From positions 1 to 20,444 of the IMG/VR virus record IMGVR_UViG_3300025127_000372: 20,444 nt of DNA. One strand, written 5' to 3'. Under the pieces are notes generated by a model, which made no database searches, had not been told where the DNA came from, and worked only from the letters and a program-made list of their open reading frames with translations. This DNA comes from a virus. Positions 1-20,444 of the stretch are shown here, piece after piece. Both the position numbers and the translations under genes were made by a program. Within the stretch, counting starts at the first letter, position 1, and each line of letters begins with the position of its first letter.

Positions 1-1572
1 TACATTTTTTTCTGGATTCCATTCTTTGTTACGAGATTCCCACTTATCAAATCTACAAAACCTGTCCTCTAACGTAAATATATTTTTGTTTTCATCTGCA
101 AAACTTTGTAGACCATTTGAAAGCTCTCTCACAAAAGGGACTTTGTTATGGTATTGATCAAATAATTCTTTTGCTTCGTCTTTATCTAACTCTAAAGACT
201 TAGCTAATTTTGTTTTACCCATGCCATAAAACAGGCCTAAATTAATAGTTTTAGCCTGTTTTCTTGTTATGTCTGCCATTTTAGCTACTATGTCATGAAA
301 GTCAGTATCAGGATTTTTGTTATATTCTTCTGCCATTTTATCTGCACCATAAAAATTATTCTTTAATGCATAGTGCACAACTAGACGTGGCTCTTGTTGA
401 GAATAGTCAAAGCTAGCCCATTTGTGGTCCTCTTCTGGTAAAAATAATTCTCTTATTTTATTACCTTGTTCAGTTCTAGCTGGTATCTGTTGTAAGTTAG
501 GATTAGACATACTAAATCTACCTGTAACCGTGCCACCCGTATCAGATCGTATTTGATTTATGTCTGCATGAATTCTGCCTTTGTGTACAAATTTTAAAAT
601 ACTGGTCACAAAAGTGTTGTGTAGTTTATCAAGTTGTCTAGCTTTTGCAATTAATTTTAAATATTTATTAGGGTGTGATTCTAAATAAGATTTTGTTATA
701 CTAGCTCGCCCTGTTTTAGGTGTAATTTTATAATCTGTTATTTTTTGTTGATCTAACAAAGGTTTTATCGAATCTGACGCCCAGATATCTACACTTACAT
801 TTGTTTCTTTTTTTATTATTTTTAATATTTCTTTTTGTTCATCTTTTAATCTTTTACCTAATGTTTTAGTTTTATCTTCATCAACTCTAACGCCTTTAAA
901 TCTCATCTCCACAAGGCACGGAAATAATCTTGTTTCCAAATCAAATATGTTTTCTAAACTTTTTTGTTTTTTAGACTCAGTGTTTATTGGTTTTTTTATT
1001 ATTTTTTTAAATATGTTCCAAAGTCTTAAAGTTAAACTAACGTCTTGCTCTGCATATTCTTTTACTAATTCATAAGGTAGTAAGTGCATATTAGACATTG
1101 GGTCTGATACACCATGTTCTTCTAACGCTTTGTCTTTTAGATCATACTTGTATTTAGAATCATTTAGATAATCTTTTGCCAGAGAATCTAAACTATATCT
1201 GTTTCTATTTTCATCTATTACAGACGCTGCAATCATCGTATCATATATTGGTCCTTTCAACATCATACCAGTAACAGCTCTTATCCAACATACGTCGTAC
1301 ATTGCATTGTGAAATACTTTTGCAACATTTTCATTCTGAAATATTTTTTTATTTAAACTTTTCCAAACTCGTTTACCATCGTGGTTACGTCCTTTGTGAG
1401 CTATTGGAAAATAAAACTTTTCATTATTGTAGGCTATTGCAATACCGCAAACTTTACCTTTACCTATAATGGACCCTGATCCGTGAGTCTTGAGGTCTGG
1501 ATCGTGTGTCTCTAAGTCGACGGCAACAACGTCACCGTTTTTTATTTCAACTTCATACAACTCAGGTATCAC
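1..1572 (-). CDS. polA: Family A DNA polymerase with 3'-5' exonuclease domain (C-terminus outside window)
   Basis: Replicative phage DNA polymerase; 524 residues are visible and the gene runs off the left edge before motif C. I translated it by hand. N-terminal proofreading exonuclease: D19-L20-E21 (motif I), N89 and D93 in FHNAMYD (II), Y173 and D177 in YAEQD (III). Polymerase domain: TGRFSMSNPNLQQIP at 350-364, motif A DYSQQEPRL with D389, motif B RKQAKTINLGLFYG at 437-450 with R437, K441, Y449 and G450. The position matching E. coli Phe762 is Leu445. There is no 5'-3' exonuclease domain, as is usual for phage PolA. The start is GTG, chosen because it overlaps the upstream stop as GTGA and lies about 7 bases after an AAAGGGA ribosome site; no in-frame ATG fits better. 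Last gene seen of the replication operon. Confidence 0.96.
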   Translation of the reverse strand, partial: MIPELYEVEIKNGDVVAVDLETHDPDLKTHGSGSIIGKGKVCGIAIAYNNEKFYFPIAHKGRNHDGKRVWKSLNKKIFQNENVAKVFHNAMYDVCWIRAVTGMMLKGPIYDTMIAASVIDENRNRYSLDSLAKDYLNDSKYKYDLKDKALEEHGVSDPMSNMHLLPYELVKEYAEQDVSLTLRLWNIFKKIIKKPINTESKKQKSLENIFDLETRLFPCLVEMRFKGVRVDEDKTKTLGKRLKDEQKEILKIIKKETNVSVDIWASDSIKPLLDQQKITDYKITPKTGRASITKSYLESHPNKYLKLIAKARQLDKLHNTFVTSILKFVHKGRIHADINQIRSDTGGTVTGRFSMSNPNLQQIPARTEQGNKIRELFLPEEDHKWASFDYSQQEPRLVVHYALKNNFYGADKMAEEYNKNPDTDFHDIVAKMADITRKQAKTINLGLFYGMGKTKLAKSLELDKDEAKELFDQYHNKVPFVRELSNGLQSFADENKNIFTLEDRFCRFDKWESRNKEWNPEKNV

Positions 1573-1808
1573 TTATAGTCCCTTTCTATGATCATTTGTA
1601 TAAAATGTATTGCTTTCAATAAATCTTCCTTACCATTTTTGTCTTGATGACGTATGATGTATTTTATAGCACAACCTTCAGGATATAACAACTTATTCTC
1701 AATTACAAACTTACTTGGCTGTATGACATACTTTGTATAATGTGATCCTCCAATTTGTGTATCGTATGGATTTAAAGGCTTAGATTTGTTCTGCTTTTTA
1801 TTAGCCAT
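1569..1808 (-). CDS. DUF3310 protein (T7 gp1.7-like, putative nucleotide kinase family)
   Basis: A 79-aa protein of the DUF3310 family. The signature is clear: IGGSHYTKYVIQPSKFVIEN at residues 19-38, then AIKYIIRHQDKNGKEDLLKA. In T7 the family member gp1.7 is a nucleoside monophosphate kinase that affects sensitivity to dideoxythymidine; whether this protein has that activity is inferred from family only. The start is fixed by a very strong Shine-Dalgarno (AAAGGAGG, 5 bases before the ATG), which lies inside the end of the helicase gene, so the two genes overlap by 37 bases. Its stop overlaps the polymerase GTG. Placement between helicase and polymerase fits a role in nucleotide supply for replication. 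Confidence 0.88.
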   Translation of the reverse strand: MANKKQNKSKPLNPYDTQIGGSHYTKYVIQPSKFVIENKLLYPEGCAIKYIIRHQDKNGKEDLLKAIHFIQMIIERDYK

Positions 1809-3421
1809 AGTGCCTCCTTTGATCTAGAGCATGCAACAAACTTCATTCTTTTTTTTACAAAAGATTCTTCTGCTCTTGTTAGTGTTAAATCTAATACTAC
1901 GTTAGAAAATTCTTTACCTTTAATTGTATGTATATTTTCTAAAAATACTCTTTTGTCTTCTAGGTCTCTGTTATTAGTTACTATCTTACGTATGTAATTT
2001 TTCATTTGTAATGATTCTAATTTATTTATCATTTGATAATCTGTTACATTTTTTAAACCAGGTAATACAAAATTATTTTTTATTAACCAATCTAAATCAT
2101 AACTACTATTTGTAACGTCATCTAAATTTTTATTATGCCCTAGATATTCTGGTCGTATGCTTTTTAAAATAGTTTTAATTTTAGTTAAAGATACACTATT
2201 GCCTTTTGTTAAATTTATAAATTCTCTGTGATTTTTTATTTCATTTGTTGGATATTTAAATTTTATTTTATTTCTTTGATCTTTTGGAACTTGCACAGGC
2301 ATACCTACTTTCATCAAGTATAATATCATTTCTCTAGGTTCATTTCCTCTGTAAGTAAAAACAAAATCTTGTTTTGTATTTACCAATTTATTTTCCAATT
2401 CATCTGCAAGAGGGTCTTGTTCTAGATTAGATAACTCATGCATTTCTCCTTCAACCACATTACCCTGTTTATCTTCTAAGGGTCTCCACTCTCTAGAGTA
2501 TCCATAATGGTCCCACACATCTTTTATTATGTCCTTACAGTATTTATTTATGACAAGAGGGCACCTATACCCTTGTTTTAATTCTATTTCTGGATTTGCA
2601 AATTCTTTGTGAAAACTATCAGGATCAGCGCCTGCAAATTCAAATATAGATTGGTCCGGGTCACCCGCTTTGTAGAAGTAGTCTACATTTTTTGACATGA
2701 TTAACTCTGCTTTTCTTTGTATAACGCTAGAGTCTTGTGCTTCATCTACTATTAATACTTTTATTCTTTTACATAATCTTTCAGACTCTTCTTGATTCTC
2801 ACAAAAAAGGTCTATCATATCTTGAAAGTCTAATATCTTTGATGTTCTTTGGTTTATTTTTGAATCACTTTTAAATGATAGGTAATTTTTTTCTAATAAT
2901 AAAAGCTCTTCTATTGAATACTTGTAATCTCTTCTTTCATCAAAACTAAGTTCTCTGTAATAATCTAATAATTTTTTACCATTGTCTCTTGCAAAACTTA
3001 CGAACTTAAAAAATGGATGACTTTTAAATAAATGTTGGACGTTGTAGAATGTAATGTTTGATGTGTATTTATTAAACATAGGCCATATTAAAATTAAATT
3101 TTCATAGTCTTCCATCAAAAATGATTTACCTTTTACTCTGTCCTTGCAAAACTTATGTATGGTGCTAACGTTTTCTTTAAATGTTTCTTTAGATTGTAGT
3201 ATTAGAGACCTGATAGATCTTTTTGTTTTATCCTGATACTTTAAAATCATTTCAGCAGATTGTATTTGATTACGTATATGATCCGCTGCTGTGTTTGTAT
3301 GAGATATTACCATTATTTCTGTAGGCGAATATTTTCTTAAACTTAAATTATCATATAGTATTTCAACTAATCTAGTTGTTTTACCTGTCCCTGGAGGTCC
3401 TGCTATTCTAATTTTTTTCAT
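1772..3421 (-). CDS. UvrD/Rep-like superfamily 1 DNA helicase
   Basis: A 549-aa SF1A helicase expected to unwind DNA during phage replication. Motifs in order: Walker A GPPGTGKT (8-15), motif Ia SHTNTAADHI (40-49), Ib TIHKFC (87-92), Walker B LIVDEAQD (223-230), motif III GDPDQSIFEF (253-262), motif IV GYRCP (284-288), motif V-like NIHTIKGKEF (496-505) and motif VI VACSRSKEAL (529-538). It is shorter than bacterial UvrD/PcrA (about 720 aa), so the 1B/2B subdomains are reduced, as in phage SF1 helicases. The start overlaps the primase stop by 14 bases and has AGGG 5 bases upstream. It sits between primase and polymerase, so it probably serves the fork rather than repair. Specificity and direction cannot be read from sequence alone. 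Confidence 0.93.
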   Translation of the reverse strand: MKKIRIAGPPGTGKTTRLVEILYDNLSLRKYSPTEIMVISHTNTAADHIRNQIQSAEMILKYQDKTKRSIRSLILQSKETFKENVSTIHKFCKDRVKGKSFLMEDYENLILIWPMFNKYTSNITFYNVQHLFKSHPFFKFVSFARDNGKKLLDYYRELSFDERRDYKYSIEELLLLEKNYLSFKSDSKINQRTSKILDFQDMIDLFCENQEESERLCKRIKVLIVDEAQDSSVIQRKAELIMSKNVDYFYKAGDPDQSIFEFAGADPDSFHKEFANPEIELKQGYRCPLVINKYCKDIIKDVWDHYGYSREWRPLEDKQGNVVEGEMHELSNLEQDPLADELENKLVNTKQDFVFTYRGNEPREMILYLMKVGMPVQVPKDQRNKIKFKYPTNEIKNHREFINLTKGNSVSLTKIKTILKSIRPEYLGHNKNLDDVTNSSYDLDWLIKNNFVLPGLKNVTDYQMINKLESLQMKNYIRKIVTNNRDLEDKRVFLENIHTIKGKEFSNVVLDLTLTRAEESFVKKRMKFVACSRSKEALWLIKSRTNLSL

Positions 3422-5054
3422 CGTGCCCTATCTTTTTTGCATCATCACCCAAGACTTTGTATTGTTCTGGATCAGATGTTATCCTCCATGTTACACAAGA
3501 AACGTCTTTATCTAATCCTTTATCAAATACTGTGCCTCTAATTTTTCGTGCGCCCAACACTTCTTTTAATTTCATAATAACTTCAGCAGGTTTACTATTG
3601 TCCTTTTGTGATTTTAAATAACGAAAGAACCTATCTAATTTAAAATCTAGTTCTTTGTTTTCTTGATTTGCATAACATGTTCCTAATAGAAGATGCTCCT
3701 TATCAAAGCTAACTGTGTTTTGATTTACAAAACCATAAAATGTTGTAATAAATTCATAGTCATCACTTGCCTCTTTTTCAGCTTTTTCAAATATTCTTTT
3801 GTCTAATCTTGCATACTGCATCTCTACAAACTCTTTTGGTTTTTTTTCTAATACTGTTATGTGTGGAAAGTGCCCTGCGTCCGCTAATTTATTAATATAC
3901 TTTTCTTTATTTATTATTTCAGAGCCAGACATCTTAACCCTAACTCTACGATAACCCTCGCCATCGTTGCTTTTAACATCTAGACTTTCATAATACACAG
4001 GAGGTTTGCTACAAAACTCTACGATCTGACCAAGTGCTTCTTCAACTTTTTTAATTTCTTCTGCTTTTCCTGGAGCAATACCACACATATGTCTTACACA
4101 CGCAGAGGGGTCACACCATTTTTTTATGTTTGGTTTTTTGCAAGAGTAGTTATAGTTTCTGTCTGCACTTTTAAATATTGTTTTTTCTATCTCATGTTCA
4201 GCCAGAGGATCTTCTAAAAATTCTTTATTAAAATTTTTTAATAATGTTTTCTCATCCATTTTACTGTATGCATCAATTTTAGTTATGCCTTTTTCTACAG
4301 CTTTTTTACTCCATACCATCATATGTAATAAAAATTCATTTCTGTTTACAGATGGAATTTTTCCATTTTCTTTTAGACAATTTTTTACACAAGGTATAAA
4401 AAAGTCCTCTATAGTTTTTTGTTTTGGTTTTTTTTCTTTTTGTACTTCTTCTACTAAATATTGTGTAAGATCTGTTTGAACATACTTGTCATGCATTTCA
4501 AAAAATTCATCTACTGACGCCGAAGAAAAGTCATCTTTGTATGCAAACGTACTACCTTCCTCATGATTATAATATGGCATGTTTAACCAAGAGCCAAAAT
4601 CTCCTTCACTTATCTTTGTTTGTAATGGATATATCCTATCTAGTATGTCTCCTAAACCAAGTTTAGCTGCAAATTTTTTCATCACTAGTTGAACCTCTTC
4701 TGCAGAAGAAAAATCTTTCATAAACATATATACATGTGCCCTACCACTTTTTGATCTGAACACTATTAATGGTAAATCTAATTTTCTAATTCTTTCTAAT
4801 AAATCTTGATAGTCGTAATTATTATCGTCAATATCAATGGCTCCCCATTTACAAGTGCCATCATCTTTGAGCGGAAATATACCTAAGTTGGGTCCCACAC
4901 CTTGTAAATGATTTTCCCAAAGTTCTTTGGTTACAGGTTTTTTAGTTACCCAAGGTCGGCCCTCTACTTTTAAAGATATTCTGTTATTTTCTTTTTTAAA
5001 TTGACCGTATGCTCGCTCTAAACCTTCGAATATTTTAATAAATTTATCTATCAT
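3408..5054 (-). CDS. Archaeo-eukaryotic-type primase (TOTE/AEP-like) with Cys-rich PriL-like middle domain
   Basis: A 548-aa primase, probably making primers for the phage polymerase. The catalytic AEP part covers about 50-165: WGAIDIDD gives the metal-binding D74 and D76, SKSGRAHVYMF gives the S-x-H site with H107, and DRIYPLQTKISEGDFGSWLNMP (139-160) resembles motif III of TOTE-type primases. A helical second part (215-326) carries C222, C226, C305, C314, C319 and C324 in a spacing that recalls the 4Fe-4S domain of the eukaryotic/archaeal primase large subunit; that match is my inference. The C-terminal 200 residues I do not recognise. The ATG at 5054 has no Shine-Dalgarno: the upstream bases are pyrimidine-rich, following a GC-rich hairpin. 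No better in-frame start exists before a TAG upstream. The stop overlaps the helicase gene. Confidence 0.85.
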   Translation of the reverse strand: MIDKFIKIFEGLERAYGQFKKENNRISLKVEGRPWVTKKPVTKELWENHLQGVGPNLGIFPLKDDGTCKWGAIDIDDNNYDYQDLLERIRKLDLPLIVFRSKSGRAHVYMFMKDFSSAEEVQLVMKKFAAKLGLGDILDRIYPLQTKISEGDFGSWLNMPYYNHEEGSTFAYKDDFSSASVDEFFEMHDKYVQTDLTQYLVEEVQKEKKPKQKTIEDFFIPCVKNCLKENGKIPSVNRNEFLLHMMVWSKKAVEKGITKIDAYSKMDEKTLLKNFNKEFLEDPLAEHEIEKTIFKSADRNYNYSCKKPNIKKWCDPSACVRHMCGIAPGKAEEIKKVEEALGQIVEFCSKPPVYYESLDVKSNDGEGYRRVRVKMSGSEIINKEKYINKLADAGHFPHITVLEKKPKEFVEMQYARLDKRIFEKAEKEASDDYEFITTFYGFVNQNTVSFDKEHLLLGTCYANQENKELDFKLDRFFRYLKSQKDNSKPAEVIMKLKEVLGARKIRGTVFDKGLDKDVSCVTWRITSDPEQYKVLGDDAKKIGHDEKN

Positions 5055-5108: not shown

Positions 5109-5861
5109 TTATAAATCTACTGAAGCTTTTTTAACTTCTTGATTCTCTGGTTGTGCTTGCACCTCACCTTTACCTATACGCTCAGCAAATTCCTTTGCCA
5201 TGTTATAGATACCGGCGTCTTTAACCGGACCAACTTTGGCTACATCCCAACCAAACCATGTTCCTTTGTCGTTAGACATTTGAACAGGTTTTAACGTGTA
5301 AATGTGACTATATGTTGGCGGTGTAAATAAACCATTCTTACCCTGCATTTTAATACCCATCATCATTGAGTTCCATTTTCTGCTAACTTTTAATTGTGTA
5401 GCTTTCATAGAAACCAACGCTGTAGTTGGTGTATTACCAGTTTGTATAACAAAATGGTTTGCAGTGTTTTCAAGATAATTACCGTTTGGTAATCTATCCT
5501 TGTATGATTTGTCACGAGTTGTTTGACTAATGATGTCACTATCTGCCTCGTGAATAGCAACAGGAGCGCCAGTGCTGGCACCTCTGTCTTGCCACTCTAC
5601 ATACTGTCTTTTATAAAAAACAGGAATGACTTGCACCTCATCAAACAGTTCGTTTGTTACTGAGTTAATTATCTTGCCAGGTTCTGCCCCCTTGACATAT
5701 TTTCCATGAGTTTTATTTACCTCTGGAGATAATTGCCCCAAAACTTTTAGGAAGGGTAACGCAAGATCGTCTTGCGAAATGTTCTGAGAGCCCTTGTTTG
5801 CATCAGCTTCAAATAAGTTTGTCGCTAATGCTCCTTCTTTCTTCGTTGCTACTTGGTTCAT
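5109..5861 (-). CDS. Conserved phage protein, possible ssDNA-binding protein
   Basis: A 250-aa soluble protein. After a disordered N-terminus it reads LPFLKVLGQLSPEV (36-49), then KYVKGAEPGKIINSVTNELF and QVIPVFYKRQYVEW, a pattern I associate with a family of phage replication-module proteins sometimes labelled ssDNA-binding. There are many aromatic and basic residues in the middle (KVSRKWNSMM, IYTLKPVQ), consistent with an OB-like nucleic-acid binder, but I cannot show the fold. The C-terminus (QPENQEVKKASVDL) looks flexible yet is not the strongly acidic tail typical of SSBs. Good Shine-Dalgarno (AAGGA) before the ATG. It begins two bases after the stop of the upstream gene and precedes the hairpin and primase. 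The function is inferred mainly from context. Confidence 0.62.
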   Translation of the reverse strand: MNQVATKKEGALATNLFEADANKGSQNISQDDLALPFLKVLGQLSPEVNKTHGKYVKGAEPGKIINSVTNELFDEVQVIPVFYKRQYVEWQDRGASTGAPVAIHEADSDIISQTTRDKSYKDRLPNGNYLENTANHFVIQTGNTPTTALVSMKATQLKVSRKWNSMMMGIKMQGKNGLFTPPTYSHIYTLKPVQMSNDKGTWFGWDVAKVGPVKDAGIYNMAKEFAERIGKGEVQAQPENQEVKKASVDL

Positions 5862-5863
5862 GT

Positions 5864-6415
5864 TTATTTGTTCCTTTTTATTGTTGTTTTATTCTCTGAG
5901 AAAACCCCAAAGATTTCCGTTGGCATTTCTTTACCCGCCTCAATACGCTCACGGACTAGCGCTTTCAGAGTCATGGGCTCTACCTTCATCTTTTGTGTCG
6001 GTTGGAACCCTTGACCCTTCGCAAGTTCGGCATAATCAGCCGCCTTGTTATCTTCGTTGCGACCAAAGGATACGGATATCTCGTTTTTGATTATATCCCC
6101 TAGTCCATTCTCACGAAGCCAGTTAAACGCCGCTTCTTTATTTGCTTCCGTTATGGTTGCACGATACGACGTTGAAACTTTCAGATGTGATCCATCATGA
6201 AGTTTTAATTCTGCTAAACCCATTTCAGACATCATAGTTGGTATAATGTCACCAGAAACTTTTTGTATTTCTGATTTAGTATTTTTAATATTGTCCTCTT
6301 GTAGTTCGAGTCTTTTTTGTAGATCTTCTAGTTTCTCAACCTGATCTGCAAGAGACTGAATACCTTCTGTCCTCTTCATTGCATCTTGTTGGTCTTTTTC
6401 AAAATCAATTGTCAT
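5864..6415 (-). CDS. Conserved phage protein with N-terminal coiled coil (unknown function)
   Basis: A 183-aa protein. Residues 20-55 (LADQVEKLEDLQKRLELQED and onward) are charged and heptad-like, a likely coiled coil that could mediate oligomerisation. The middle (HLKVSTSYRATITEANKEAA) looks like a mixed alpha/beta domain. The C-terminal segment PMTLKALVRERIEAGKEMP followed by EIFGVF looks like a conserved end found in other phage replication-module proteins, but I cannot name the family. Strong Shine-Dalgarno (AAAGGAG). It overlaps the upstream gene by 11 bases and is followed two bases later by the possible SSB gene, so the two may work together. The part at 5941-6060 is about 50% G+C (61 of 120 by hand count), far above its surroundings. 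Confidence 0.75.
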   Translation of the reverse strand: MTIDFEKDQQDAMKRTEGIQSLADQVEKLEDLQKRLELQEDNIKNTKSEIQKVSGDIIPTMMSEMGLAELKLHDGSHLKVSTSYRATITEANKEAAFNWLRENGLGDIIKNEISVSFGRNEDNKAADYAELAKGQGFQPTQKMKVEPMTLKALVRERIEAGKEMPTEIFGVFSENKTTIKRNK

Positions 6416-6782
6416 CTATTTCTCCTTTCTCGTATAGATTAATTTCAATAGGATAATATTTTCTTTCTTGTTTATCCCACTTTAATAAATTGTATTTGCC
6501 GTTTGTAATATCAGATACAATAGAACATGCAACACCTATAAGTGCAGGATCACCAGTTAATAATAAATGATCTCCCTCTTTAAAATCTTTTAAACCTTGT
6601 CTTAATTTGTAAATTAAAGGACCTGGAGAAAAAATCATTTGAGAAAATTCTGGTAATAAAAATTTAAAATTGCCATATTTTTGTGCACCTATAATATTTA
6701 TTTTAGGATTACCTGCTTGTGTTCCAGCAATATGTTGTATTACATAAACTATTCTTTCTGACATTGACAAATCATATAACAT
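6405..6782 (-). CDS. Conserved small phage protein (unknown function)
   Basis: A 125-aa protein, first gene of the leftward replication operon. It has no enzyme motif I recognise. Notable stretches are INIIGAQKYGNFKFLLPEF, HLLLTGDPALIGVACSIVSD and KYNLLKWDKQERKYYPI; the last two have the regular look of a compact alpha/beta fold and recur, as I recall, in other marine phages. The start is uncertain. The ATG at 6782 has AAAGG directly touching it, which is too close for a normal ribosome site. The ATG at 6764 (residue 7, giving 119 aa starting MSERIVYVIQ) lies 8 bases after a candidate minus-strand -10 box and would be read from a nearly leaderless transcript. Its upstream region overlaps the promoter of the plus-strand SNF2 gene. 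Confidence 0.75.
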   Translation of the reverse strand: MLYDLSMSERIVYVIQHIAGTQAGNPKINIIGAQKYGNFKFLLPEFSQMIFSPGPLIYKLRQGLKDFKEGDHLLLTGDPALIGVACSIVSDITNGKYNLLKWDKQERKYYPIEINLYEKGEIDDN

Positions 6783-6807: not shown

Positions 6808-8238
6808 ATGAATTATAAATTTAAGTTAAGACCGTATAAGCATCAATTGACTGCTTTAGAAAAGTCATGGAATAGAGAAACCTACGCTTATTTTATGGAA
6901 ATGGGTACGGGTAAAACAAAAGTATTAATAGATAATATGTCCATGCTTTATGATAAAGGTAAGATAGATAGTGCTTTAATTATAGCACCAAAGGGTGTTG
7001 TAAAAACTTGGTATGAACAAGAGCTGCCTACACATTTACCAGACCACATAGAAAATGTGACTGTATTGTGGCAATCAAATATAACCAAAGGACAACAAGA
7101 AAAATTAGATAGTTTGTTTGAAATAGAAACTGCACTTCATATTTTAATTATGAATGTAGAGGCACTATCTACAGATAAAGGTGTGAAGTTTGCACAAAAA
7201 TTTTTAAACTCTCATAAAACATTAATGGCTATCGATGAATCTACTACTATTAAAACACCAACGGCAAAAAGAACTAAAAATATTATTGGCTTGGGTACAG
7301 CTTCTAAATACAGAAGAATTATGACAGGTTCGCCGGTTACAAAAAATCCACTAGATTTATACACACAGTGTGAATTTTTAGATCCATATTTATTAGATTC
7401 ATCATCTTATTATGCATTTAGAAACAGATACGCTGTCATGAGAACTATGCATGTTAGAGGCAGATCAATACAAGTTGTAGATTATTTTCAAAACATGGCC
7501 GAGCTGTCAGAAAAATTAAAAGGTTTTTCATACAGAGTTTTAAAAGAAGATTGTTTAGATTTACCTCCAAAAAATTTTATTAAAAGATACATAACATTAA
7601 CAAAAGATCAAAAAAAAGTTTACGAACAAATGAAGAAAGAAGCGCTATCAATTTTAAATGGTAAAGTATCTTCAACAATGACAGTTCTTACTCAACTAAT
7701 GAGACTGCATCAAATAACGTGCGGACATTTTACAGCTGATGATGGATCAACTCAAAATATAGATAGTAATAGAATAAAAGAACTTATGAATATATTAGAA
7801 GAGACGGAGGGCAAAGCTATAATATGGGCTAACTATCAAAAAGATATTTCACAAATTGTAGAGAATATAGAAAAAGAATATGGTCCGGGGTCCGTGGTTA
7901 GTTATTATGGACTCACGCCACAAGATGAAAGACAAGATAACATACGTAAATTTCAGTCCGACCCTAAGTGCCGATTTATGGTAGGAACGCCGTCTACGGG
8001 CGGCTACGGCATTACTTTGACGGCTGCAAACACCGTAATATACTATTCTAACGGATATGACCTAGAAAAGAGATTACAATCAGAAGACAGAGCACACAGG
8101 ATAGGACAGAAAAAAGCAGTGACTTATGTCGATCTGATTTGTGAGGAAACTGTTGACGAGAAGATTGTGAAGGCTTTAAGAGATAAAATAAATATTGCAT
8201 CTGAAGTTTTGGGTGAAGAGCTTAAAGACTGGATTTAA
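6808..8238 (+). CDS. SNF2-family DEAD-like helicase/ATPase
   Basis: A 476-aa superfamily 2 ATPase of the Swi2/Snf2 group, expected to translocate on double-stranded DNA. Motifs: Q-like YKHQLTALEK (10-19), Walker A MGTGKTK (32-38), Ia IIAPKGVVKTW (58-68), Walker B AIDEST (141-146, DEST in place of DEAH), III IMTGSP (171-176), IV/V MVGTPSTGGYGITLTAANTV, and VI RAHRIGQ (428-434), the hallmark of the family. The length is that of a bare helicase core without accessory domains, typical of phage versions. It is the only large gene on the plus strand, starts 25 bases from the divergent replication operon under its own promoter, and its TAA shares bases with the stop of the endolysin gene. Role in replication, recombination or host takeover is open. 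Confidence 0.94.
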   Translation: MNYKFKLRPYKHQLTALEKSWNRETYAYFMEMGTGKTKVLIDNMSMLYDKGKIDSALIIAPKGVVKTWYEQELPTHLPDHIENVTVLWQSNITKGQQEKLDSLFEIETALHILIMNVEALSTDKGVKFAQKFLNSHKTLMAIDESTTIKTPTAKRTKNIIGLGTASKYRRIMTGSPVTKNPLDLYTQCEFLDPYLLDSSSYYAFRNRYAVMRTMHVRGRSIQVVDYFQNMAELSEKLKGFSYRVLKEDCLDLPPKNFIKRYITLTKDQKKVYEQMKKEALSILNGKVSSTMTVLTQLMRLHQITCGHFTADDGSTQNIDSNRIKELMNILEETEGKAIIWANYQKDISQIVENIEKEYGPGSVVSYYGLTPQDERQDNIRKFQSDPKCRFMVGTPSTGGYGITLTAANTVIYYSNGYDLEKRLQSEDRAHRIGQKKAVTYVDLICEETVDEKIVKALRDKINIASEVLGEELKDWI

Positions 8239-8714
8239 ACAAATAAATCTTTTGCGTTACCTATAATAGGTTTGTATTTTGTTTTACCTTCTGATCTGAA
8301 TGCATGTAAAAAACTAGCTCGTGGTGTCCCTTCTGTATAACTACAATGTATCCATCCGCTGTTAGGTTCACCCGGAGTGTAAAACTCTAGAATTAGCTGA
8401 TCATATGGAAGTTCTTTTTTAATCCAATCAGCAAGATCACAGTTATCAACGCCCACAACTTCGAAGTCTGCGGCCTCAGCCTTGGCATGCTGCGAATTTA
8501 AACTGCTGCCTATAGCTACACACAACTCAGGGCTACGATAGCCCGATGTTATTTTTACCCTGCCGAAATGATCACGTACCGGCTGTAAAATTTTTTCACA
8601 CAGTGTTTTTAATTTTTCTATTTGTTCTGCGTTAGGATTATTATTAATACCTTTACGTATCGCCGTGTCTGATTTGATTAATTCTGCTAAAGTAAAATTA
8701 CGTGTAAGTTCCAT
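8235..8714 (-). CDS. M15-family peptidase endolysin (D-Ala-D-Ala or L-Ala-D-Glu type)
   Basis: A 159-aa zinc peptidase predicted to cut the peptide cross-links of host peptidoglycan at lysis. Zinc ligands fit the M15A pattern: H76 and D83 in SQHAKAEAADFE, H123 in WIHCSY, with catalytic-type E110 in QLILEF; SGYRSPELC (57-65) is the usual preceding motif. No signal peptide, so it would need a holin; a 58-aa membrane protein gene lies directly upstream. I chose the ATG at 8714 rather than an in-frame ATG at 8774, because 8714 overlaps the stop of that small gene as TAATG and because the extra 20 residues are just the small gene read in another frame. It ends tail to tail with the SNF2 gene, sharing TTAA. 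Confidence 0.9.
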   Translation of the reverse strand: MELTRNFTLAELIKSDTAIRKGINNNPNAEQIEKLKTLCEKILQPVRDHFGRVKITSGYRSPELCVAIGSSLNSQHAKAEAADFEVVGVDNCDLADWIKKELPYDQLILEFYTPGEPNSGWIHCSYTEGTPRASFLHAFRSEGKTKYKPIIGNAKDLFV

Positions 8715-8890
8715 TATCTTGCAATGTCCGTAAGTAAAGTTATAAGAACAGCTCCCATACCTCCTACTATCCAATATTCTAGTCTTTTGATTCGGTCCTT
8801 CATTTCTTTAATTTGTTCAAAAGTTTGCTTTTGCATTATTCTGCAAAGCTTTTCATGTGATTCAATTTTTTGTAATGCTGATTTTTTCAT
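8714..8890 (-). CDS. Small membrane protein, holin/XhlA-like
   Basis: A 58-aa protein, found by translating the gap between the 1313-aa gene and the endolysin. Residues 5-38 are charged and helical (KIESHEKLCRIMQKQTFEQI and onward), and 39-55 (YWIVGGMGAVLITLLTD) form one hydrophobic membrane segment. This layout, an amphipathic coil then a single C-terminal membrane helix, resembles the XhlA haemolysin/holin-accessory group; small size prevents certainty. Shine-Dalgarno AGAAGGA 8 bases before the ATG. The ATG overlaps the stop of the 1313-aa gene as TAATG, and its own stop overlaps the endolysin ATG in the same way, so membrane protein and endolysin are coupled as a lysis cassette. An overlapping 64-codon frame on the plus strand (8724-8918) is its shadow. 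Confidence 0.8.
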   Translation of the reverse strand: MKKSALQKIESHEKLCRIMQKQTFEQIKEMKDRIKRLEYWIVGGMGAVLITLLTDIAR

Positions 8891-11800
8891 TACGTCGTCC
8901 TTCTTAAATTTTGTCTAATTATTTTCTCGTCAGGAGATAGTACTGCCTCTTCTGTTGATGTCAATAACGTATTTGGATTAACATCTGTAGCTCTTTTTAC
9001 CGTTCCTACAGCTTCAGGCTGCGGTGTAGTTGGTAAAGTAGGGGCACCAATACCTGTGTCAGGTAAAAGGTAATCATTTAAATCTATATCAAAAGTGTCA
9101 TCTAAACTTAAAAATTGCATTTCTTTTTTCATTGCTTTTATTGTAGGTAAAACTAATTTATAAACATCAAAAGTTCCAAGATCTTTTGCTATTTCTTTAA
9201 ATCTATCTTTTATTTCAGCTGAAGGAAAATATGGTTCGTACTTACCTTTTCTTAAATTATTAAAAGTTAAAACTGATAACTGTCTATCTCTAAATTCTTT
9301 TCTTAATGAAGATGAAGATGTTCCTAATATTTCTGCTGCATTAATATTTTTAAACATTTCTTTTTGAACATTAAATCTTGCCTTATTGGATTCATAAAAT
9401 CTACTTATAATATCGTCTGCTTTTATTGGTCCACCCCTTAACAATCCAAAATAACCACCAGTAAACTCTCTTCGTGCATTTCTTATACCTGTTTGATATT
9501 CTGCAATTTTAAAACCCATGGCTTTTAGTGGATCTACTTTAATTGGTCTAAATCCAGCAAGACCAGATATTTGATCGCTAAGATCTAAAGTTTCTCCTGA
9601 TTTTGTCGGTCGTCCTGTTGCTGCTAATCCTATTCTAATATATTGTTTGTAAGATGGAGCTAATGCTTCCATTAAGTGTCTAAACTTAATTGCCATTCTA
9701 TCGCCAACGGGTGTTTGTTCAGTGTATAATATTCTACCGTCTCTAGTTCTACCGCCTCTTCCAGGTAATAATGGATATAAACTAATATCTGCGGATGCTT
9801 CAGTCCAAATAGATTCATCTATAAATGGCGCTGCTACTTCTGTTACAGCCTCTTCAACACCAGTTAAAAATCCTTTTAGTATTGTGTCACCATCTTTTGT
9901 AGATGATGCAATTTCATTAGCCATAGTTCTAAATGGTCTTGCAATTAAATCATAAGCATTGCTGTGACTAAAATCTATATATTTTAATTCACCTGTTTTT
10001 TCATCTCTAATAGGTATTAACGTAGAATTTCTAGACCAGTCAGGTACAAACTGACGTAACGCTTGTATTTCATCTTCAGTCACGTTGTATAATGCTTTTG
10101 TTCCTTCTACTAACATTGTTGGAAAAGCAGTTAGATAGAACGCCATGCCCGCCGCTCTTGTTGCACCTATTTTATATAATGGGTTATCATTTTTTACTAA
10201 TCTTCCTGTAGCTTTTTCTAAAACCCAAGGAGCTATATTGCTTCCTATTGTTTCTTTAGAGTGTTTTAATTCTTTAATTGCTTGGCCACCAATGTTTGTA
10301 GTTGTTCTAATCATCTCGGATGGAAACGACATGAAATTACCAACCGGTAATAATCTTGCAGTTCTTACAACATCACCAACAAAAGCATAGTTAGGAACTG
10401 TATTTTTAACTATATCAGCTGCTTCTTTTTTTAAATCGTCTACAGATTTTTTTATACCGGCAGTTCGGTAGGCCTCATCTCTTCTACTAAGTTCTACAAA
10501 ATAATTTGTAATTTTCCAAAAATCATCTTCAGCCACATATTTACCTTGTAAATAAGCTGGTATTTTTTTAAGTTTAGATAACAAGGGATTTACAATAGCA
10601 TCTACTTCTAATATTTTGTCTCCAAAACCAGTGTCTCTTAAAAGATTTTTTACATCTCCTATTTGAACTTGTGAGTTTACAACACCTAACTCTAATAATT
10701 CTCTGTATGCTTTTTCAAATTCTTTGTCATTAAATCTTGATCCTTGAAATGGATTAACCCCAGATATGCCCCAACCTTTTCTAAATGATTGTCCTAATAG
10801 TTTTGGATTTAAAAATCCTTCAAATAATATACCGTTTGCAGCAGCAAAACCCGCTGCACTTATTATGTTTCGTAAGTGTGTAGGTATTGAAAATACTGTT
10901 TTAGCTAATTGTGCTGTAGCTTTAGGAAACAATAATAAATTTCTATATAAAAAAGCTGTGCCTTTTTCTGCAGCAGTTGCACCTTCTCTTGTACCTCTTG
11001 CAGTTGAAACTAAAAAACCTTCAGTTATACCGTTTGCTCTTTTTAAAGCCTCTGCTATTGGTTTTGTTGTGAACATTGCACCTGCAGGATTGCTAATTCT
11101 ACCTGTTTTAAATTCTGCTAGACCAGCTAAAGCATTATCAACTTTTACAATTTCAACTTGTCTATTAGTAGCCGCTTCGGCAGCTTCCTTAGTTGACCAA
11201 AAAGATCCTTTTCCTCCTGCTGCTTGTGCAGCGTTGCTTGCTTCTAACATCTCTTTAAACATGGCACTCATTCTACTCATGCCAGATAACTCTGTTATAG
11301 CATTAAATATTCCATACCTTGGATCTTGAACTTCTCCTAGTAATTCTCTTAAAACTTTTGGTGGTATATCTGCATCTTTCATAATTTGTTTTGCAAAATC
11401 TTCACCTCTTACATCTGATATTGTTTTTTTAACGTAGTTTGGATCAGCTAGACCTCTTTTTGATTTTCTAGCTTTTACACCGTCTTCTAAAATTCTATCT
11501 ACAATATTTTTTGCGTCTTCATAATATTTAGTGCTATTAGGATCAAATGTTATATCTTTGTTTGCTTCTGCTATTTGTCTTCTAAAAAAATCTATTGACC
11601 TAATCATAGATTCATCAGTTGGTTTATACTTACGAAACACACCAAGAATTGGTTGTTGTTCAAAAATTTTGTACGTACTTTTTGTTAAAGTTTTTATTCT
11701 ATCTTGTAATATATCTTTTAATTCTTTAGAATTTAAATTACCCGTAGCTTCTATCAATCCGCCTATTTTAAGTCTTGACTCATCTATTGTATCTATAATA

Positions 11801-12831
11801 TTTTTTACAACTTTTTCATCTACGCCTTTTTTTGCAAGATCTTTTATAAAAGCGTCTGTTTTTTTAGGATCTGATAATTTAGTTAAATCACCATCAAATA
11901 ATAATTCATTTAATTCTTTATAAAATTTATCTTTTTCTTTAGTTGTTAAAGATCTATCTAAAACTTCTTGCATTTGAGGAAACGCTCTTGAAATACCTTT
12001 ATCTAATTGTTTAATAAGTTCTGTGGCCCTGTTTAAATCACCTGCCTTAAAACCCTCCATAACTTTTTGTGAAGCAAACAAAGATTTTGTTAAATCTCCT
12101 TCTGGAGTAAACGCAGTTACTATTTTACCTAAAAACCTGTCTAGTCTTGAATTACTATAAATAAGTTCCTGTCCTCTAGTTGCCATGGCTTTTGCTGATT
12201 TACCTACACCTGCAACAAAAGGTGTTAATAACAAGGATTCACTACCAAATTTAAATCTATTCATTAATTTTCTAGTAGCGTCTTCTCGACCACCTTCTAA
12301 TGCATATACATCTAATTGAGTTGGTCCTCTATCAAGTATGTCACCAAAACTACCTATTTCTTCAACGTCAGCAACAAACGCTTCTCCTGTTGCGCCTCCG
12401 ATAGCACCTACACCAAACTTTGCATAACCTGCTTTTTTATTTAATTCATCAGCTATTTGTCTTTGTTTTGTTAAATTTTTAGAACCAGCACTTACTAATT
12501 GACCTGCTTTTTTTGCATCAAAATATCTTTGCGTTAATCTACTAGCTAGTTTAAAACCTGCGGTTCCTGGTACACCTATTTGAACTAGTGTTTGCACGAG
12601 TCGACCCACACCATTTTGTTCAGCAACTTCTTCAAACGGATTTAATTTATCAAAAAACATTTCTACTGATGCAGCTGTATTTGTATCTAAACCCAGATCA
12701 ATTAACTCTGCACCTAATGAAAAAGCTCCCTCAACAACTTTAATACCTCCAGATGCTATACCTGCAAGACCTGCGGTATACCAGGATGCTTCGTTGTTTT
12801 GTTCTGCTGGGATGAGCGGTTGTAGTGCCAT
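8890..12831 (-). CDS. Giant internal virion / ejection-like protein (T7 gp16 size)
   Basis: A 1313-aa protein, probably a virion component. I see no catalytic motif, in particular no lytic transglycosylase domain at the N-terminus like that of T7 gp16. Residues 17-60 are rich in small hydrophobics (YTAGLAGIASGGIKVVEGAF) and could contact membrane. The bulk is helical and charged. Around 635-655 it reads FSIPTHLRNIISAAGFAAAN, around 828-842 VGNFMSFPSEMIRTT, and around 895-915 there is a hydrophobic stretch (AGMAFYLTAFPTMLVEG); these recur, as I recall, in large marine phage virion proteins. Length (T7 gp16 is 1318 aa) and position just before lysis genes suggest an ejection protein. It begins 8 bases after the 267-aa gene, with GGAG in the gap, and its stop overlaps the next gene as TAATG. 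Confidence 0.78.
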   Translation of the reverse strand: MALQPLIPAEQNNEASWYTAGLAGIASGGIKVVEGAFSLGAELIDLGLDTNTAASVEMFFDKLNPFEEVAEQNGVGRLVQTLVQIGVPGTAGFKLASRLTQRYFDAKKAGQLVSAGSKNLTKQRQIADELNKKAGYAKFGVGAIGGATGEAFVADVEEIGSFGDILDRGPTQLDVYALEGGREDATRKLMNRFKFGSESLLLTPFVAGVGKSAKAMATRGQELIYSNSRLDRFLGKIVTAFTPEGDLTKSLFASQKVMEGFKAGDLNRATELIKQLDKGISRAFPQMQEVLDRSLTTKEKDKFYKELNELLFDGDLTKLSDPKKTDAFIKDLAKKGVDEKVVKNIIDTIDESRLKIGGLIEATGNLNSKELKDILQDRIKTLTKSTYKIFEQQPILGVFRKYKPTDESMIRSIDFFRRQIAEANKDITFDPNSTKYYEDAKNIVDRILEDGVKARKSKRGLADPNYVKKTISDVRGEDFAKQIMKDADIPPKVLRELLGEVQDPRYGIFNAITELSGMSRMSAMFKEMLEASNAAQAAGGKGSFWSTKEAAEAATNRQVEIVKVDNALAGLAEFKTGRISNPAGAMFTTKPIAEALKRANGITEGFLVSTARGTREGATAAEKGTAFLYRNLLLFPKATAQLAKTVFSIPTHLRNIISAAGFAAANGILFEGFLNPKLLGQSFRKGWGISGVNPFQGSRFNDKEFEKAYRELLELGVVNSQVQIGDVKNLLRDTGFGDKILEVDAIVNPLLSKLKKIPAYLQGKYVAEDDFWKITNYFVELSRRDEAYRTAGIKKSVDDLKKEAADIVKNTVPNYAFVGDVVRTARLLPVGNFMSFPSEMIRTTTNIGGQAIKELKHSKETIGSNIAPWVLEKATGRLVKNDNPLYKIGATRAAGMAFYLTAFPTMLVEGTKALYNVTEDEIQALRQFVPDWSRNSTLIPIRDEKTGELKYIDFSHSNAYDLIARPFRTMANEIASSTKDGDTILKGFLTGVEEAVTEVAAPFIDESIWTEASADISLYPLLPGRGGRTRDGRILYTEQTPVGDRMAIKFRHLMEALAPSYKQYIRIGLAATGRPTKSGETLDLSDQISGLAGFRPIKVDPLKAMGFKIAEYQTGIRNARREFTGGYFGLLRGGPIKADDIISRFYESNKARFNVQKEMFKNINAAEILGTSSSSLRKEFRDRQLSVLTFNNLRKGKYEPYFPSAEIKDRFKEIAKDLGTFDVYKLVLPTIKAMKKEMQFLSLDDTFDIDLNDYLLPDTGIGAPTLPTTPQPEAVGTVKRATDVNPNTLLTSTEEAVLSPDEKIIRQNLRRTT

Positions 12832-19866: not shown

Positions 19867-20079
19867 ATGAAAGACGTAAAAGACGATATTATTAAAGATT
19901 TAGAGTTAAAATTAGACATGGCTGAACAAGTAAAAGAGTCAGAAGTTCAGTTTAACACTGATCTTAAAGATCGAATAGAGAAGCTAGAATTACATATTGA
20001 AACCTTGTTAAAGGTTAATGAATTCTTTAGACAAAAAGTATTAAAGTATAAAGCTATTGTTTCTAAGCTAACGAAATAA
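19867..20079 (+). CDS. Small coiled-coil protein
   Basis: A 70-aa, almost wholly helical and charged protein (MKDVKDDIIKDLELKLDMAE to KYKAIVSKLTK). Hydrophobic residues recur at heptad spacing through DLKDRIEKLELHIETLLKVN, so a dimeric coiled coil is likely. No membrane segment, no DNA-binding motif I can name. It has its own strong promoter whose expected start site touches the ATG. No Shine-Dalgarno is present, consistent with leaderless translation; the alternative ATG at 19915 (residue 17) has no better site. It overlaps the oxygenase gene tail to tail by 17 bases. Being alone on this strand with a strong promoter suggests early expression, perhaps a regulator or host-interaction factor; that is inference. 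Confidence 0.72.
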   Translation: MKDVKDDIIKDLELKLDMAEQVKESEVQFNTDLKDRIEKLELHIETLLKVNEFFRQKVLKYKAIVSKLTK

Positions 20080-20444
20080 AATTATAATATCCTGTAATTA
20101 AGTATCTATTTTTATTTTGAGGACAAGGTTGACCTCTGTGAGTATGAGTAAAATAAGGTGGGAATAAAACAGCTTTGCCAGCCTCCGATTGTATTGTTTC
20201 CCCACTATAAAATTCTGTGCCACAGTTATGATCACTTAAATAAAGTTGAAATACCATAACTCTTGTAGCATAATCACCACAATGCTCTGAATGCCATTTA
20301 TTAAAGTAGTCCCCAGATTTAAATTTTTTAAACCGTAAAGAAGTCATTGCCCATTTATCTTTTGTTAGATTTAATTCTGGATAATAAGAACAATATTTTT
20401 GCACCATACCCAAAGCCTCAGTAACAATTAATCTTTGAATTTTT
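20063..20444 (-). CDS. 2-oxoglutarate/Fe(II)-dependent oxygenase (N-terminus outside window)
   Basis: C-terminal 126 residues of a 2OG-Fe(II) dioxygenase, probably of the prolyl-hydroxylase-like type. Visible iron ligands: H and E in KWHSEHC (H-x-E in place of H-x-D) and a distal His in PPYFTHTHRG; the 2OG-binding Arg follows in KNRYLITGYY. FQLYLSDHNCGTEFY is the usual strand around the active site. The frame is open to the right edge with no stop, and the usual family length is near 200 aa, so the start is beyond 20444; a TTG at 20413 or ATG at 20407 would be unlikely starts inside it. Such enzymes are common in marine phages; the substrate (virion protein, DNA or a host metabolite) cannot be told. 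It ends inside the 3' end of the 70-aa gene. Confidence 0.88.
   Translation of the reverse strand, partial: KIQRLIVTEALGMVQKYCSYYPELNLTKDKWAMTSLRFKKFKSGDYFNKWHSEHCGDYATRVMVFQLYLSDHNCGTEFYSGETIQSEAGKAVLFPPYFTHTHRGQPCPQNKNRYLITGYYNFISLA

Follow-up and report, generated by a model that had tools for sequence, protein, structure and literature searches.

Can a phage make a primase in which a catalytic part and an Fe-S part, usually found on two subunits, are joined in one chain? The reason for the Fe-S cluster of the archaeal and eukaryotic primase is disputed, and a gene in a 20,444-nucleotide stretch of viral DNA (positions 1 to 20,444 of IMG/VR record IMGVR_UViG_3300025127_000372; hereafter the window) raises the question in a new setting. 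A first-pass annotation of the window proposed that the product of this gene fuses PriS-like and PriL-like parts, the latter with a six-cysteine cluster site.

The gene (3408..5054, minus strand) was defined by its open reading frame and translation; it encodes 548 residues and matches PHROG 21866 'primase' at 2.4e-60. The protein consists of an archaeo-eukaryotic primase (AEP) domain, a cysteine domain resembling both PriL-CTD and PriCT-1, and a C-terminal region, in that order. The AEP catalytic domain (residues 1-200; 4455..5054, minus strand) is as clear as had been claimed: D74, D76 and H107 are all in place, and Pfam AEP-TOTE matches with E=2.8e-17 (63.5 bits against a cut-off of 27). 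All conservation counts given here refer to an alignment of 57 non-redundant viral relatives, in which D74 and D76 of motif I (D-x-D) are invariant (57/57), as are K102, S103 and H107 of motif II. The motif III region (residues 132-145; window 4620-4660, minus strand) reads E-IFPKQ in the aligned relatives; in the window's subclade it is shifted by one residue and reads D139-R-IYP(L/M)Q. The description of this part as PriS-like needs correcting. Searched with the family profile, the nearest solved sequence to the AEP domain is the CRISPR-associated Prim-Pol (CAPP) of Marinitoga (3.8e-16), and the AlphaFold model of the window primase (mean pLDDT 86) matches CAPP structures by fold at 5.8e-12. 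As judged from these matches, the catalytic part is a TOTE/CAPP-type AEP and not PriS proper. At the other end of the protein, residues 341-548 (3411..4034, minus strand; delimited by the Pfam scan and AlphaFold secondary structure) matched no Pfam family in that scan. The model of this region ends in a helix-helix-strand-strand arrangement (residues 473-526) that looks winged-helix-like.

Which of the cysteines matter? The translation has ten (68, 222, 226, 305, 314, 319, 324, 348, 460 and 520), and the six singled out at first (C222, C226, C305, C314, C319 and C324) are where they were said to be, with their codons inside the interval noted. Only four of them are invariant, each in 57/57 relatives: C222 (codon 4389..4391), C305 (4140..4142), C314 (4113..4115) and C319 (4098..4100), all on the minus strand. 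C226 (4377-4379, minus strand; 8/57) and C324 (4083-4085, minus strand; 7/57) are restricted to the subclade that includes the window primase, plus its closest relative, which rules out a six-cysteine cluster site and leaves four candidate ligands. As a separate observation, the combination of C226, C324 and C460 (3675-3677, minus strand) is peculiar to that subclade (7-8/57), where the three possibly form an accessory metal or disulfide site, to judge from this pattern. The same four invariant cysteines are kept in aligned phage homologs down to 19-28% identity, among them the isolated phages HTVC023P, HTVC027P, DSL-LC04 and 023Pt_psg01, as well as Acinetobacter, Klebsiella, Providencia, Salmonella and Dinoroseobacter phages. 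In the main alignment the site reads (P)PC-x(68-84)-C-x8-C-x4-C. The first gap reaches 128 residues in the phage set, Nanhaivirus-type phages bear insertions, and HTVC023P has C-x10-C where the others have C-x8-C. In the window primase, 82 residues lie between C222 and C305 and the span holds four AlphaFold helices (221-230, 235-254, 268-279 and 286-296), in agreement with the 'about 80 helical residues' of the first-pass annotation.

The order of one cysteine, a long helical gap and three more is indeed that of PriL. For comparison, 23 archaeal PriL loci were gathered via Pfam PF04104, many of the archaeal loci being from metagenome-assembled genomes, and the alignment also included the human chain 5f0q. 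The archaeal PriL-CTD motif is PPC-x(60-77)-C-x8-C-x(3-7)-C (23 loci), so that the (P)PC...C-x8-C...C spacing is common to the phage domain and the archaeal loci. In yeast PriL the cluster ligands are C336, C417, C434 and C474; in archaeal PriL the C-terminal subdomain is reduced to a linker with the last two cysteines and one helix (PMC2852410), and the window primase has the same shape. Pfam found no PF04104 match in the primase or elsewhere in the window record, and the N-terminal PriS-binding domain of PriL is lacking. The window primase is accordingly not a PriL protein; what stands of the PriL-like claim is the CTD module alone (residues 214-346; 4017..4415, minus strand), defined by the invariant cysteines and by the profile link to archaeal PriL-CTD described below.

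When the phage domain was aligned directly with archaeal PriL-CTD (hhalign), the probability was 63% (P=7e-5) and the first three cysteines fell into the same columns. Profile P-values here and below are for single pairs, judged against shuffles and not taken from database searches. The score of 31.6 exceeded the maxima reached by shuffling the PriL columns (23.5) and by shuffles that kept the cysteines (26.2). With the cysteines masked it fell to 18.2, that is, most of the direct signal was gone. One reading of this loss is convergence, in which a PriCT-1 domain acquired its cysteines independently and resembles PriL-CTD by chance. Since the direct signal leans on the cysteines, intermediates were sought. 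A candidate counterpart of the essential PriL arginine, Arg238, was dropped because the profile alignments put the two residues in different columns.

The intermediates came from mobile elements. In a set of 349 genomes the phage-domain profile found primase-helicases of archaeal mobile elements, with E-values down to 1e-13, that have PPC...YVYGC-x8-C-x4-C after an AEP-like N-terminal part. These align with the phage domain at P=7e-19 (hhalign) and with PriL-CTD at P=2.8e-9, in the latter case with all four cysteines in register. The match to the phage domain is expected because the proteins were found with the phage profile; the independent part is their match to PriL. When the family was pooled, the comparison with PriL gave P=9e-8 and a score of 46.8 (21.7 with the cysteines masked), far above the maximum of 25.6 in 200 cysteine-keeping shuffles, which argues against chance likeness. 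The same cysteine motif is borne by Bacillus plasmid primases. For instance, a 372-residue primase of Bacillus paralicheniformis plasmid pBP1 (L246; 403-1521), whose gene adjoins one for a DnaB-like helicase, matches the phage HMM at 2e-9 and the PriL HMM at 1.2e-4; the same residues of this one protein are matched by two Pfam models, PriCT_1 at 5.8e-7 and, short of its cut-off, DNA_primase_lrg at 0.0012, which again counts against convergence. A plasmid of Halobaculum halophilum encodes a single chain of 396 residues (L249; 1456-2646), annotated as hypothetical, in which AEP-TOTE (3.5e-26) is followed by a PriL-CTD-like domain (1.2e-5). Other searches yielded less: the phage-domain HMM had two weak matches in 20 archaeal genomes, to unrelated genes or broken frames; the full-length family found only a short AEP piece in 151 archaeal genomes; and neither a plasmid search with one family member nor a scan of viral contigs with an archaeal primase (L220) gave a match. 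At the level of sequence profiles, these comparisons show that the phage domain is homologous to PriL-CTD through the archaeal and Bacillus mobile-element primases.

How does this bear on the likeness to PriCT-1, which is the named Pfam match and counts in favor of convergence? PF08708 (PriCT-1) scores 11.7 bits on the window primase, below its cut-off of 21.1, but at E<=1 it finds 10 of 17 members of the family, the best at 1.2e-6. PriCT-1 regions from pIT3, pORA1, Streptococcus phage 115, Rhizobium, Spartinivicinus plasmids and others were inspected and are without the four-cysteine set, so cysteine-free relatives do exist among those inspected. Kazlauskas et al., arguing independently from structure, had already proposed that PriCT-1, PriCT-2, PriX and the PriL Fe-S_N subdomain are homologs; it was with PriCT-2 that they aligned cysteines, two out of the four (PMC5862659). 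The first-pass annotation had set a PriCT-type helical domain against its own proposal. The domain is PriCT-1-like and resembles PriL-CTD as well, and in view of that published homology the two labels do not compete. The structural searches did not confirm the likeness to PriL-CTD. For modelling, the isolated domain was taken from a relative, L061, around which the alignment is densest; pLDDT was about 87-97 over the core of the model, and Foldseek found no match to it in the PDB, a result that convergence would accommodate. PDB sequence searches with the primase and with the domain profile gave no PriL or PriCT match, and a hit named 'archaeal/eukaryotic-type primase large subunit' at rank 32 of a viral structure library (3e-4) was given no weight. 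The (P)PC motif, the helix order and the x8 spacing are nonetheless common to the phage domain and PriL, and with the shuffle and bridge results they make convergence, in our judgment, very improbable.

What do the four cysteines bind? We consider it likely that the protein is a single-chain primase whose PriL-CTD-like module carries a [4Fe-4S] cluster and holds the first nucleotide, the latter two properties being those that we infer. The architecture itself is observed, as are the four invariant cysteines and their PriL-type spacing. A different answer, that the same domain binds zinc in a structural site that stabilizes its core, with no Fe-S cluster in this lineage, appears rather unlikely to us. 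Fe-S and zinc ligation look alike in sequence, the spacing of the last three cysteines (C-x8-C-x4-C) is as tight as that of many zinc sites, and zinc modules are common among AEP proteins (PMC5862659); yet the homologous PriL domain with the same spacing has a proven [4Fe-4S] cluster (PMC2852410), and PolpTN2, which has the same four cysteines, is brown when purified (PMC3973330).

If the four cysteines ligate a [4Fe-4S] cluster, it would fasten the helical core, at its end, to the short cysteine-rich tail, and its part would probably be structural rather than catalytic. Priming in Sulfolobus does not require the cluster, and the initiating nucleotide is held next to the active site of PriS both by PriL-CTD and by PriX, which stands in for it without Fe-S (PMC5700102); the C-terminal domain of CAPP has been modelled in the same nucleotide-holding role (PMC10345425). 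By homology with PriL-CTD and PriX, the phage domain most likely holds the initiating nucleotide as well, within one chain. The helical core would keep the triphosphate of the first nucleotide beside the AEP active site while the first dinucleotide forms, the neighboring SF1 helicase would provide the single-stranded template, and the primer may then be handed over to the family A polymerase of the phage.

The genes for these partners lie next to that for the primase, all on the minus strand. A UvrD-like SF1 helicase (1772..3421; UvrD-helicase 1e-27) overlaps the primase gene by 14 bases, a DUF3310 protein (1569..1808; DUF3310 1.9e-5) overlaps the helicase gene, and a family A DNA polymerase with a 3'-5' exonuclease domain (1..1572; DNA_pol_A 3.2e-49) is cut by the window edge. 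This order of primase, SF1 helicase, DUF3310 and PolA, with short overlaps, is also found in 023Pt_psg01, plus one small gene. Just upstream of the primase, three consecutive genes (5109-6782, minus strand) match families like gp34, gp33 and gp32 of phage Pam3, of unknown function. They are followed by a SNF2-type helicase gene on the plus strand (6808-8238), opposite to the replication operon, and by an ORF (8235-8774, minus strand) that by eye may encode an M15-type peptidase, endolysin-like. A 1313-residue protein (8890-12831, minus strand) had no PHROG match at E<=0.1, and an ORF cut by the other edge (20063-20443, minus strand) seems, again by eye, to resemble a 2-oxoglutarate/Fe(II) oxygenase.

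A PriCT-1 domain with four cysteines links PF08708 with PF04104, two families listed separately in databases. With this site complete in a 548-residue phage primase, and with related PriCT-1 domains that lack it, the contribution of the cluster could be studied in a compact natural setting. It is conceivable, if on balance doubtful, that a large family of bacterial-virus primases has a genuine PriL-type [4Fe-4S] initiation module on the catalytic chain itself and that the cysteine-bearing PriCT-1, which mobile elements of archaea and Bacillus also have, is the ancestral link to both cysteine-free PriCT-1 and cellular PriL-CTD. Were the cysteine-bearing form ancestral, the Fe-S cluster of primases would predate the cellular two-subunit primase or be independent of it.

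How, then, does the window primase compare with known systems? Closest are the phages of PHROG 21866 (HTVC023P, 023Pt_psg01, DSL-LC04, Acinetobacter and Klebsiella phages), whose proteins belong to the same family over their full length, keep the four cysteines, and are encoded near a helicase and often PolA too. They are annotated only as primase or hypothetical, and no mention of a PriL-type cysteine site was found in the literature on them. Archaeal and eukaryotic PriL-CTD (PF04104) has the (P)PC, the helical core, the C-x8-C and the fourth cysteine in register with the phage domain, but PriL is a separate subunit with an N-terminal domain that the window primase lacks. PriCT-1 (PF08708) has the same helical core after an AEP domain, and the G-x-RN and N/PL/E motifs are common to both; the PriCT-1 regions inspected differ in lacking the four cysteines, all of which the phage family keeps. 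PolpTN2 of Thermococcus nautili plasmid pTN2, likened here by description, joins an AEP and a four-cysteine PriL-like domain in a single chain (PMC3973330). Unlike the phage primase it has 923 residues, a divergent AEP, and an extra PriCT-1 beside the PriL-like domain (PMC5862659). CAPP, the nearest solved AEP domain, has a C-terminal PriCT with conserved cysteines (PMC8211822), also likened by description, that is proposed to act like Pri2/PriX (PMC10345425); its TPR, RT or helicase fusions and cas genes were not seen in the window primase or the scanned neighbors. Nor was a TOTE conflict-system context found: only the AEP domain model matches, and the scanned neighbors are replication genes. 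Fused AEP-PriL proteins are known from PolpTN2, N. equitans and, reportedly, a Bacillus provirus (PMC3973330). Cysteine conservation and profile links bear out the fusion seen by the first-pass annotation; it is not unprecedented, given PolpTN2 (PMC3973330) and CAPP with its cysteine-containing PriCT (PMC8211822). As far as we could find, what is new here is that the family of this ocean phage has the full PriL-type four-cysteine site in a single-chain primase.
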